From positions 248,001 through 312,000 of the forward strand of contig NZ_JARBUT010000005.1 in NCBI RefSeq assembly GCF_028882275.1: a stretch of 64,000 nucleotides of DNA, written 5' to 3'. The position numbers and the translations under genes were made by a program. The notes below the pieces were generated by a model, which searched no databases, had not been told where the DNA came from, and saw only the letters and a list, made by a program, of their open reading frames with translations. The stretch is from Nocardiopsis sp. N85 (GTDB lineage Bacteria; Actinomycetota; Actinomycetes; Streptosporangiales; Streptosporangiaceae). Below, piece by piece: positions 58,742 through 63,890 of the stretch (position 1 is its first letter; every line of letters starts with the position of its first letter).

Positions 58742-60367
<1,626 letters not shown>

Positions 60368-60479
60368 GGGCACCTCCCTGAAAGTCGTATCCCTGAATCA
60401 CGCAGGGGCTGTCTCATCCAACGTTCGCAGAGCGAGCCCGTGCGAACCTTGTGGGACGGGCCACTCTTTGCCCGAGCTG

Positions 60480-60497
60480 TTTGTCCCTTGGGACAAA
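60480..60497. promoter_or_regulatory. Operator-like palindrome between pruA and pucR
   Basis: TTTGTCCC-TT-GGGACAAA, a perfect 8-bp inverted repeat, 113 bp upstream of pruA and 79 bp upstream of the regulator. GGGAC and GTCCC half-sites recur at about 60451-60460 and 60521-60530 in the same region. It is a likely site for the PucR protein. Confidence 0.6.
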
Positions 60498-60575
60498 ATG
60501 AAACCCGAAGGTCCAGCGACGTCCCAACGACACCGCACGCGCACCAACGTTCGACGACCGCCAACGGAGCCCTCT

Positions 60576-62297
60576 GTGACATCCTCCATCACCGCTGGTC
60601 AAGACAGAGATTCGGACGCCCCGCGCCCGGGGGTGCCCCTGCGCGGTCTCCTGTTGGCCCTGGGCGACCCGATCGTGGACGTGGCCGCCGCCCCGGCAGG
60701 CCTGGATGTCCAGGTGGACAACGTCCTCATCATGGACCCCGAGGACCGGACCGAGGTGCGCGCCGGAGACCTGGTGCTGCTCATCGGAGCCCGGGGCGGC
60801 TCGGCCCGCCGACTGGTGCGGTCGATCGCCGAGCGGGGCGCCACCGCCGTCGCCGTCAAGGGCGGGCTCCCTCACGATCGGGAGGAGGCGCCCGCCCGGG
60901 GACGTCCTCGGATCGGCGGGGACGATCTGGCGCCACTGCGGGCCGAGGCCCAGGAGGCGGGCATCACGTTGCTGGTGGTGCGCCCGGAGGTGCGCTGGGA
61001 CCGGTTCCAGGCGGTGTGCCAGGGCATCGTGGACGACGCCCGGCTGCTCGACGGCGGTGACGTGGGCGAGGCCGACGGCGACCTGTTCTCGATGGCGCAG
61101 ACGATCGCACAGCTCACCGGCGGGCTGGTGAGCATCGAGGACTCCGCGAGCCGGGTGCTGGCCTACTCCAGTGGCGCGGAGGTGGACGAGCTGCGACGGC
61201 TGTCGGTACTGGGCCGTCGGGGGCCGGAGTCGTACCTGGCGTTGCTGCGCGAGTGGGGGGTGTTCGCCACCCTGCGCGCGGGCGAGGAGGTGGTGCGCAT
61301 CGACGAACACCCCGACCTCGGCATCCGGCGGCGCCTGGCCGTGGGCATCCACGCCGGTGACCGGCCGCTCGGCGCGATCTGGGTGCAGGAGGGGTCCCGG
61401 CCCCTGGCCGAGCACGCCGAGGAGGCCCTGTTGGGCGCGGCGCGCACCACGGCCCTCCAGATGATCCGCCAGCGTACGCGGGCCAGCGCCGGGCTGCGGT
61501 TGCGCGAGGACCTGCTCTCCAGCCTGTTGGAGGGGCGGATCGACGCCGCCGCGCTGGCCGACACCGTGGAGGTGCGCAGTGATCGGGCCGCGCTGGTGGT
61601 GGCGTTCGCCCTCGACGGGGAGGAGGGGGGCGAGCGGGCCGATCGTCCGGAACGGGAGTTGCGCCGTCGCCGGTTCATCGACCTGGTGTCGGTGCACACG
61701 GCCGCCTACCGGCGCAGTTCGCTGGTGACGGAGTTGAACGGGCGGGTGTACGTCCTGCTGCCCGACCTGGTCCACGACCAGGGGGGTCCGGAGCGGTCGG
61801 TGGTGACGTTGAGCGGCAAGATCGTGGAGGCGGCCCGGGGTGCGTTGGGGTCGCGGGTACGGGCCGCGATCGGATCACCGGTGGGCCGGTTGGCGGACGT
61901 GCCGGAGTCACGGCAGGAGGCCGACCGGGTGTTGGAGGCGATGCGGGGGGACGCCGACCGGGAGGTCGCGACCATCGACGACGTGCGTTCGCGGGTGCTC
62001 ATCCGGGAGACGCTGGCGCGCCTGCGCGAGGACCCGTCGCTGCGCGATCCCCGGGTCGACCGGCTGGTGGAGTACGACCGGGGAGGCGGGTCGGAGCTGG
62101 TGCGGTCGCTGTCGGCGTACCTGGAGGAGTTCGGGGACGCCAGGGCGGCGGCGGATCGGCTGCACATCCATCCGAACACCCTGCGCTACCGGGTGCGGCG
62201 CGCCGCGGAGATCAGCGGTATCGACCTGTCCGCCCCGGGGGAACGGCTGTTCACCCAGCTCCAGCTGATGATGGAACGGGATCGTCCCGCGAAGTGA
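60576..62297 (+). CDS. PucR-family transcriptional regulator (proline catabolism)
   Basis: A 573-residue regulator. The N-terminal PucR sensory domain (about 20-150; MDPEDRTEVRAGDLVLLIG) is followed by a GAF-like region (about 150-330; TGGLVSIEDSASRVLAYSSG) and the C-terminal PucR helix-turn-helix (about 505-570; LVRSLSAYLEEFGDARAAADRLHIHPNTLRYRVRR). The Ala-rich DARAAADRLHIHPNTLRYR helix is the DNA-reading element. GTG 60576 has GGAG seven bases upstream. In Streptomyces PucR-type proteins activate proline utilisation; here the divergent pruA-putB genes fit that role. Confidence 0.92.
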   Translation: MTSSITAGQDRDSDAPRPGVPLRGLLLALGDPIVDVAAAPAGLDVQVDNVLIMDPEDRTEVRAGDLVLLIGARGGSARRLVRSIAERGATAVAVKGGLPHDREEAPARGRPRIGGDDLAPLRAEAQEAGITLLVVRPEVRWDRFQAVCQGIVDDARLLDGGDVGEADGDLFSMAQTIAQLTGGLVSIEDSASRVLAYSSGAEVDELRRLSVLGRRGPESYLALLREWGVFATLRAGEEVVRIDEHPDLGIRRRLAVGIHAGDRPLGAIWVQEGSRPLAEHAEEALLGAARTTALQMIRQRTRASAGLRLREDLLSSLLEGRIDAAALADTVEVRSDRAALVVAFALDGEEGGERADRPERELRRRRFIDLVSVHTAAYRRSSLVTELNGRVYVLLPDLVHDQGGPERSVVTLSGKIVEAARGALGSRVRAAIGSPVGRLADVPESRQEADRVLEAMRGDADREVATIDDVRSRVLIRETLARLREDPSLRDPRVDRLVEYDRGGGSELVRSLSAYLEEFGDARAAADRLHIHPNTLRYRVRRAAEISGIDLSAPGERLFTQLQLMMERDRPAK

Positions 62298-62324
62298 GCG
62301 CGGGCACCCGGAAGGGCGTACGAG

Positions 62325-62398
62325 TACCCCCGGTCGGACTCGAACCGACACTTGTGACCCTTTTAGGGGGCCTGCCTCTACCATTGGGCTACGAGGGC
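62325..62398 (-). tRNA. Non-canonical class-I tRNA-like gene, UAA anticodon position
   Basis: The minus strand folds as a 74-nt cloverleaf. Acceptor pairs 2-71 to 4-69 and 6-67, 7-66 are Watson-Crick, 1-72 and 5-68 are G-U; D stem GCC/GGC, T arm GTCGG-TTCGAGT-CCGAC with the normal TTCGAGT loop, and a 6-nt variable loop. The anticodon stem GGCCC/GGGTC holds loop CCTAAAA, so position 33 is C instead of the near-universal U and the anticodon is TAA, which would read UUA. It has no long variable arm, unlike true tRNA-Leu(UAA). No CCA is encoded. Either a divergent functional tRNA or a decayed one. Confidence 0.7.
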
Positions 62399-62404
62399 GA
62401 GCCC

Positions 62405-62410
62405 ATCATA
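62405..62410 (-). promoter_or_regulatory. -10 box for the tRNA-like gene
   Basis: TATGAT on the minus strand ends six bases before the first tRNA base (62398). The expected transcription start therefore equals or nearly equals tRNA position 1. The -35 region is weak. Confidence 0.5.
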
Positions 62411-62463: not shown

Positions 62464-62495
62464 AGCGGCCGTTCCCCCGCGGGGGAACGGCCGCT
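62464..62495. terminator. Palindromic terminator between tRNA-like gene and ndh
   Basis: A perfect 32-bp palindrome: arm 62464-62478 pairs with 62481-62495 across GC. It follows the ndh stop (minus strand). Confidence 0.75.
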
Positions 62496-62510: not shown

Positions 62511-63890
62511 TCAGCTCACGCGACGCAGGTTGCCGCCTTCGACGGCCTGCGGGTTGCTGGCCTCGGCGAAGGCCTGGCGGGGCTCGACCATCTCCGGCAG
62601 CGCGGCGAAGTCGCGGCGCAGGAAGAACCCGAGCGTCCAGTCCGACAGCACCCGCAGCTTGCGGTTGAAGGTCGGGACCGCGAGCAGGTGGTAGGAGCGG
62701 TGCGCGTACCAGGCGAGCCGGCCGTTGAGCTTGATCTTGCCGAACAGCTGGGCGGCGCCCTTGTGCATGCCCAGACCGGCGACCGCGCCGAGGTTCTTGT
62801 GGCGGTAGGCGGTGAGCTTCGTGCCGCGCAGGGTGGCGATCACGTTGTCGGCCAGCACCGGGGCCTGGCGGACCGCGTTCTGGGCGTTGGGCGGGTAGTA
62901 GCCGCCGTTGCCGTCGGGCACCTGGGCGTTGTCGCCACCGGCGAAGGCGTTCTCCACACCGTTGACGGTGAGGTTCTCACCGGTGTCGATGTGGCCCTTG
63001 GGGCCGAGCGGCAGGTCGCTGGCGGCGACGACCGGGCTGGGCTTGACGCCGGCGGTCCACACCAGGGTGCCCGCGTCGAACTCGGTGCCGTCGCTGAGCT
63101 TGATGCGCTGGTCGGCGGCCGACTCCAGGAACGTCTTGAGGCGGACGTCGATGCCGCGGCGACGGAGCTGGTTGAGGGCCTTGGTGCCGACCTCGGGGCC
63201 GACCTCGGGCAGGATCTTGTCGGCGGCCTCGATGAGGAAGAAGCGCACGTCCGACTGGTCGATCGAGGGGTGGATGCGGACCGCGTCGCGGACCATGTCC
63301 TCCAGCTCGGCGATGGCCTCGGCACCGGCGAAGCCGCCGCCGACGAACACGAAGGTCAGCGCCTTGCGGCGGACGTCCTCGTCGTCGGTGGAGTCGGCGA
63401 TCGTCAGCTGGTCGAGGACGTGGTTGCGCAGGTAGGCGGCCTCTTCGACCGTCTTGATGCCGATGCCCCACTCGGCCAGGCCGGGGATGGGCAGGGTGCG
63501 CGAGACGGCGCCGGCCGCCATGACCAGGTGGTCGTAGGCGATGGTCTCGGGCTCGCCCACGTTGGGCTCGAAGCGGACCGTGCGGTCGGCGTGGTCGATG
63601 CGCACGACGCGGCCGCCGAGGACGCGCGTCCGCTTGAAGACCTTGCGCAGCGGAACGACGACGTGGCGGGGGGAGATGCTCCCGGCCGCCGCCTCGGGCA
63701 GGAACGGCTGGTAGGTCATGTAGGAGTTGGGGTCGATGACGGTGATCCGCGCCTCGCCGGCCCCGAGCTTCTTCTCCAGCCGCTTCGCGGTGTACATCCC
63801 GAGGTAACCGCCACCGACGATGAGGATGTGCGGGATCTCCGCCTCGTCCCCTCCGCCGTGCACCAGCCGGTAGTTCCTGCTCTCGGTCAT
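62511..63890 (-). CDS. ndh: Type II NADH dehydrogenase
   Basis: Single-subunit, non-proton-pumping NADH:menaquinone oxidoreductase of the respiratory chain. The 459-residue protein has an FAD-binding motif VGGGYLGMYTAKRL (about 24-38), a second nucleotide-binding motif FVFVGGGFAGAEAIAEL (about 170-186), the FAGGDNAQVPD FAD region and a C-terminal amphipathic, membrane-binding region (WTLGFFLRRDFAALPEM). Start 63890 has only a weak site. The proline dehydrogenase upstream feeds the same quinone pool. Confidence 0.95.
   Translation of the reverse strand: MTESRNYRLVHGGGDEAEIPHILIVGGGYLGMYTAKRLEKKLGAGEARITVIDPNSYMTYQPFLPEAAAGSISPRHVVVPLRKVFKRTRVLGGRVVRIDHADRTVRFEPNVGEPETIAYDHLVMAAGAVSRTLPIPGLAEWGIGIKTVEEAAYLRNHVLDQLTIADSTDDEDVRRKALTFVFVGGGFAGAEAIAELEDMVRDAVRIHPSIDQSDVRFFLIEAADKILPEVGPEVGTKALNQLRRRGIDVRLKTFLESAADQRIKLSDGTEFDAGTLVWTAGVKPSPVVAASDLPLGPKGHIDTGENLTVNGVENAFAGGDNAQVPDGNGGYYPPNAQNAVRQAPVLADNVIATLRGTKLTAYRHKNLGAVAGLGMHKGAAQLFGKIKLNGRLAWYAHRSYHLLAVPTFNRKLRVLSDWTLGFFLRRDFAALPEMVEPRQAFAEASNPQAVEGGNLRRVS

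Follow-up and report, generated by a model that had tools for sequence, protein, structure and literature searches.

Among the closest described counterparts of the gene reported here are the class-II bacterial tRNAs for leucine with the anticodon UAA, including that encoded by bldA in Streptomyces. The bldA-type regulatory tRNA is non-essential, and controls development through genes containing TTA codons. The tRNA gene found in Nocardiopsis sp. N85 resembles these in its anticodon, in the discriminator base A73, in a leucine-type D arm (with a 3-bp stem) and in being directed at the rare codon UUA; it differs from them in having no long variable arm, and in having C rather than U at position 33 of the anticodon loop. 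The class-I tRNA-Leu(UAA) genes with U33 seen in other Actinomycetota have the same short-armed fold, the same determinants and the same anticodon, but they differ from the Nocardiopsis gene at position 33, and their loci usually have other neighbours.

A class-II long variable arm comprises 10 or more nucleotides, as given in the accessible part of PMC7609411. A short variable loop is described for a tRNALeu(TAG) in a Mycobacterium tRNA gene cluster (excerpt of PMC6582537), which is thus, like the present case, a bacterial tRNA-Leu with a short loop. However, as that excerpt has it, the Mycobacterium copy is an extra one beside a normal long-loop TAG gene, whereas the Nocardiopsis gene is apparently the only UAA gene of its genome. 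For M. tuberculosis, the portion of PMC11541572 available names tRNALeu-2, 3 and 5 as long-looped, implying that the others are not. The mitochondrial tRNA-Leu(UUR) also has no long arm, its identity resting on A73 and A14, but it is organellar and charged by a mitochondrial LeuRS (partial text of PMC9976931); the Nocardiopsis tRNA, in contrast, is bacterial and stands beside class-II leucine isoacceptors. Searches of the open-access literature (titles and starts of abstracts, most subscription papers lying outside this scope) yielded no paper treating class-I tRNA-Leu as general to a bacterial group, and nothing on C33 in a bacterial elongator tRNA.

The DNA analysed, referred to here as the window, is a stretch of 64,000 nucleotides from the genome of Nocardiopsis sp. 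N85. ARAGORN makes a single tRNA call in it, a tRNA-Leu(TAA) at 62324-62398 on the minus strand. The Rfam tRNA model RF00005 matches 62325-62398 on the same strand with 46.5 bits, the gathering score being 29, and with an E value of 5.7e-8 over the 4 kb searched; the match spans positions 1-71 of the 71 in the model, which places the gene in the tRNA family. The remaining Rfam matches near the gene were dropped, their scores being below their gathering scores. The features of the locus are collected in Table 1, in which the names ndh-like and pucR-like come from an earlier reading of the sequence and are hence putative.

Table 1. Features at the tRNA locus, in window coordinates.
Feature	Position	Strand	Basis or remark
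Class-I tRNA-Leu(UAA) gene	62325..62398	-	ARAGORN, Rfam RF00005, sequence reading
TATGAT, -10-like box, six bases before tRNA base 1	62405..62410	-	Sequence; promoter role inferred
Perfect 30-nt inverted repeat between ndh and tRNA	62465..62494	.	Sequence
ndh-like gene (putative NADH dehydrogenase)	62511..63890	-	Upstream of tRNA, same strand; conserved neighbour
pucR-like gene (putative; start codon uncertain)	60351..62297	+	Faces tRNA; conserved neighbour in genus

Read directly, the sequence gives an intact 74-nt cloverleaf with all four arms. The acceptor stem is GCCCTCG/CGGGGGT, with wobble pairs at G1-U72 and U5-G68. The short D stem carries a loop with the ordinary GG, and the T arm, GTCGG-TTCGAGT-CCGAC, has an equally ordinary TTCGA loop. 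The anticodon stem is GGCCC/GGGTC, enclosing the loop CCTAAAA, in which C33 is at 62366 and the anticodon UAA, that of a leucine codon, at 62365-62363; the canonical elongator loop would have U33. The variable loop has six bases, so that the gene is class I, and differs in this from a bldA-type gene, which is class II. The discriminator A73 is at 62325 and CCA is not encoded, as is also the case in the calls for many ordinary tRNAs of the same genome. The original prediction, made from the letters of the DNA, had described a 74-nt cloverleaf with UAA, C33 and a short variable loop, and ARAGORN, RF00005 and the reading of the sequence all agree with it. The G-U pairs in the acceptor stem, the missing CCA and the TATGAT box at six bases from base 1 were likewise as described, and the comparison with a tRNA model that it had proposed gave the full-length minus-strand match reported above. 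The TATGAT box would be the promoter element of the tRNA gene. Of 25 loci of the genus (taken throughout as Nocardiopsis in the wide GTDB sense), 23 have a box of the form TA(T/C)N(A/C)T at 4-9 nt ahead of base 1, as do 108 of 118 named loci with the C33 form among the matches listed. The inverted repeat is likely to mark the end of the ndh transcript.

The genome of Nocardiopsis sp. N85 (G000) has 63 matches to RF00005, which were then read by ARAGORN. Among its leucine anticodons GAG and CAG are on class-II tRNAs, and CAA, TAG and TAA on class-I tRNAs. No class-II tRNA for UUA, UUG or CUA was found in G000, either with RF00005 and ARAGORN or with class-II patterns, although its assembly is in 54 contigs and a gene could therefore have been missed. 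Three genomes in two contigs each (G001, G005 and G010) agree with it for UAA and UAG. Class-II leucine patterns gave as tRNAs only GAG and CAG in G000, G001 and G010, and a class-II CAA in addition to these in G005; the remaining matches to these patterns were not tRNA-like by eye, and the backward control also gives matches. Selected low-scoring matches were read in six other genomes (G005, G025, G027, G031, G034 and G037). All six have class-II tRNAs for CAG and GAG. The UAA tRNA is class I in G005, G025, G027, G034 and G037, and by pattern in G031 as well. The CAA tRNAs of G025, G031 and G034 are class I, and those of G005 and G027 class II; for TAG, G005 and G025 have the class-I form, and G027, G031, G034 and G037 the class-II form. 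This mixture of classes implies that loss or gain of the arm took place separately in each isoacceptor. It is worth adding that the UUG reader, tRNA-Leu(CAA), is class I in G000 (L064, G000:C1:700905-700977) and class II in N. dassonvillei (L109, G005:C1:3779177-3779259), a class switch within the genus.

The class-I form of the UAA tRNA is widespread. Of 160 genomes of the order searched by pattern, 159 have it, and the premise of the original prediction, that a real tRNA-Leu is class II, therefore fails here. At the level of the phylum, 74 of 298 genomes matched the class-I UAA pattern, one of these being a likely chance match, and 137 the class-II UAA pattern; the same patterns run backwards as a control matched in 5 and 12 of the 298, respectively. 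Both forms were found together in 2 genomes, compared to an expected 34 (Fisher p 5e-21), and with two chance-looking matches removed the overlap is a single genome (p 4e-22). Neither pattern matched in 89 of the 298, so either the patterns miss some genes or some genomes have none. The class-II UAA pattern also matched in 0 of the 22 genomes reached through named C33 loci, among the matches listed. The class-I UAA tRNA thus replaces the class-II one, and over the 298 genomes the two are nearly mutually exclusive. The one true-looking overlap, G078, has its two UAA tRNAs at G078:C144:41333-41385 and G078:C555:16576-16622; its class-I copy has U33, and the other copy is class II with C33.

For SerRS in general, the long arm is a contact that is removed when the arm is lost. 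In E. coli, leucine identity is assigned to A73, A15-U48, G18G19 and A20a, and tRNA-Leu variants without the long arm stay active (both from the accessible section of PMC9976931). All of the determinants named in that section are present in the Nocardiopsis tRNA. Given that they are kept, an ordinary LeuRS could still charge the short-armed tRNA, and we would expect the class-I tRNA to be charged by LeuRS like its class-II sisters. That the class-I tRNAs have a second LeuRS of their own can be rejected for G000, where one LeuRS is above the cut-off among the matches listed. The class-I UAA tRNA occurs together with both forms of the enzyme, the shorter in G034 and G037 and the longer in G027 and G031, so the form of LeuRS does not explain it. 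Separately, G025 has two adjacent LeuRS-like frames of 894 and 991 aa (G025:C124:22518-27877), which represent the shorter and the longer actinobacterial form, one each.

Codon use was analysed in 608 genes inferred from base composition, taken from 112 named C33 loci (among the matches listed) and the window. Their 20711 leucine codons are TTA 25, TTG 737, CTA 164, CTC 6683, CTG 12646 and CTT 456; in the window, TTA is 1 of 1618 leucine codons in 41 inferred genes. Homologues have Leu at the TTA positions in 0.65 and Phe in 0.17 of 138 aligned pairs, a small set whose members are not independent. Six TTA positions have five or more aligned homologues, and at each of them Leu is the most frequent residue, for example at TTA codon 396 of an Actinomadura syzygii gene (L234), with Leu in 20 of 20, and at TTA codon 101 of L227, with 37 Leu and 22 Phe. 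Most TTA positions with a different residue in homologues fall within the first 25 codons of the gene, a part in which the start is in doubt; 3 of the 25 TTA positions have other residues and lie away from gene starts (L239 codon 64, L295 codon 61 and L303 codon 326).

The gene is very likely, then, to encode a functional tRNA-Leu that decodes UUA, probably the sole one of this Nocardiopsis genome, which has lost the long arm, is charged by LeuRS and tolerates C33. The observations behind this reading are the fold, its conservation and covariation, the absence of any detected class-II alternative, and Leu at most of the conserved TTA positions; transcription, charging by LeuRS and the effect of C33 are what we infer from them. 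The UUA-reading tRNA of the order would thus have lost its long variable arm and come to fold as class I. A tie to rare TTA codons had been proposed at the outset, as an alternative decoder or a regulator; the tie is supported, as that of an ordinary decoder, no class-II UAA tRNA having been found in the genome.

The U33 rule, which C33 violates, is nearly universal, and yeast tRNAs with U33 replaced reportedly retain part of their decoding activity in vitro. In the present tRNA C33 is real: it is found in 25 of 25 genus loci and in 31 of 31 genus genomes of the 160-genome order scan, so that it is fixed in the genus, and Thermobifida and Actinomadura share it. A scan of named genomes found the C33 form in at least 118 stretches, the hosts among the matches listed being Nocardiopsis, Streptomonospora, Thermobifida, Actinomadura, Actinoallomurus, Trebonia, Thermomonospora and others. 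The U33 form is found elsewhere in the order, for example in G027 and G028, and 8 of the 160 (G447, G459, G456, G433, G441, G492, G485 and G451) have two class-I UAA copies, one with C33 and one with U33, possibly as a division of labour or an ongoing replacement. C33 probably goes back to an early substitution in a single branch of the order, and would be tolerated on account of the great rarity of UUA. Decoding may be slower with it, and with TTA so scarce a moderate drop in speed would go unnoticed; that the C33 tRNA works at all is argued from its conservation.

Two further observations concern the loop. Three loci with a C33 class-I UAA tRNA (L270, L284 and L327) are in assembled genomes labelled Proteobacteria or Acidobacteria, for which misbinning is possible. 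In G000, the only other loops without U33, in a survey whose Glu-ctc and Lys-ttt rows were parsed out of register, belong to two of a set of odd tRNA-like genes on contig C17, one of them also with C33. This set (L073, G000:C17:48731-49093) comprises three genes called by ARAGORN as Arg-GCG, Ala-GGC and Trp-CCA, with near-identical D arms, low RF00005 scores and, in two of them, no U33.

A slow tRNA might also be a regulatory one. C33 would weaken the anticodon turn and act as a built-in brake: the sole UUA tRNA of Nocardiopsis, Thermobifida and Actinomadura would be slow and would throttle genes with TTA as the bldA tRNA does in Streptomyces, making it an independent counterpart of bldA, and in genomes with both copies C33 and U33 would divide slow from fast decoding. 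The very low use of TTA, both in the window and in the 608 inferred genes, would fit this proposal, as would the retention of C33 throughout the sampled genus genomes and the eight genomes with one copy of each form. However, high G+C alone accounts for the rarity of TTA, and according to the part of PMC4255298 available, the developmental role of bldA may not reach beyond Streptomycineae, outside which conserved growth genes sometimes contain TTA codons. We regard a regulatory brake as unlikely, and prefer an ordinary UUA decoder in which C33 is tolerated.

The unusual class-I form and C33 might point to a use outside translation, such as the donation of aminoacyl groups in cell-wall or natural-product synthesis, but no result supports this directly, and the neighbourhood of the gene bears on it. 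All 25 genus loci have ndh upstream, in the orientation of the tRNA, and pucR downstream in the opposite orientation, the gene having a fixed chromosomal position in the genus. Over a wider range, at least 71 of 118 C33 loci among the matches listed have an ndh of the same orientation no more than 1.5 kb upstream, compared to at least 5 of 30 U33 loci, and pucR is a neighbour in at least 29 of the 118; these counts are lower bounds, many loci ending at block or contig ends. The original prediction had looked to relatives for the gene at the same ndh-pucR position, with a class-II relative there overturning its reading, and the gene is class I in every one of the 25. With these flanks, with the ordinary GG of the D loop and TTCGA of the T loop, and with no other UAA tRNA found in the genome to serve decoding, recruitment outside translation is very improbable.

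A decaying pseudogene had also been among the options offered at the outset, and C33, the two wobble pairs in the acceptor stem and the lack of an encoded CCA could be taken to suggest one. The gene is present, at 96-100% identity, in each of 25 genus genomes, its own included, and only 4 of its 74 positions vary among the 25 loci. The mean pairwise identity of these loci, ungapped, is 0.982 over the tRNA, compared to 0.676 over the 30 nt upstream of it, 0.469 over -130 to -30 and 0.331 over the 30 nt downstream of it, which upholds the earlier statement that the fold is more conserved than random decay would leave it. Among 101 unique class-I UAA sequences (68 with C33 and 33 with U33), the acceptor, anticodon and T-stem pairs are each standard in 96-101, the search pattern having demanded at least 4 of the 5 T-stem pairs, and many stem pairs change on both sides, as where acceptor pair 6 and anticodon pair 4 go from C-G to T-A. 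U48 is present in all 101; the search pattern itself specified A14, A15 and the D-loop AGA, which are therefore not independent evidence in this set. The relatives therefore have neither the stem-breaking changes nor the relaxed constraint of a pseudogene, the absence of CCA is common among ordinary tRNAs of the genome, and there is scarcely any probability left for decay.

Recoding, in which the class-I tRNAs would insert another amino acid at UUA, UUG or CUA, or the CUA lying one base 5' of the anticodon in the loop CCUAAAA would read the stop codon UAG, has the class-I form and that shifted triplet in its favour, but was rejected as next to impossible, because the share of Leu in homologues is 0.79 at TTG and 0.78 at CTA positions, like the 0.77 at CTG, because the stem of a shifted anticodon would not pair, and because TAG terminates 151 of the 608 inferred genes, so that UAG is not a general sense codon.

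The functional tRNA-Leu(UUA) reading implies that the textbook rule that bacterial tRNA-Leu is class II breaks down isoacceptor by isoacceptor within one genome. This provides a natural test of the minimal features of tRNA-Leu that LeuRS needs, and is a warning for tools that assign leucine identity by the long arm. It also provides a natural elongator tRNA with a conserved C33, in which the role of U33 in decoding would be testable in living cells.
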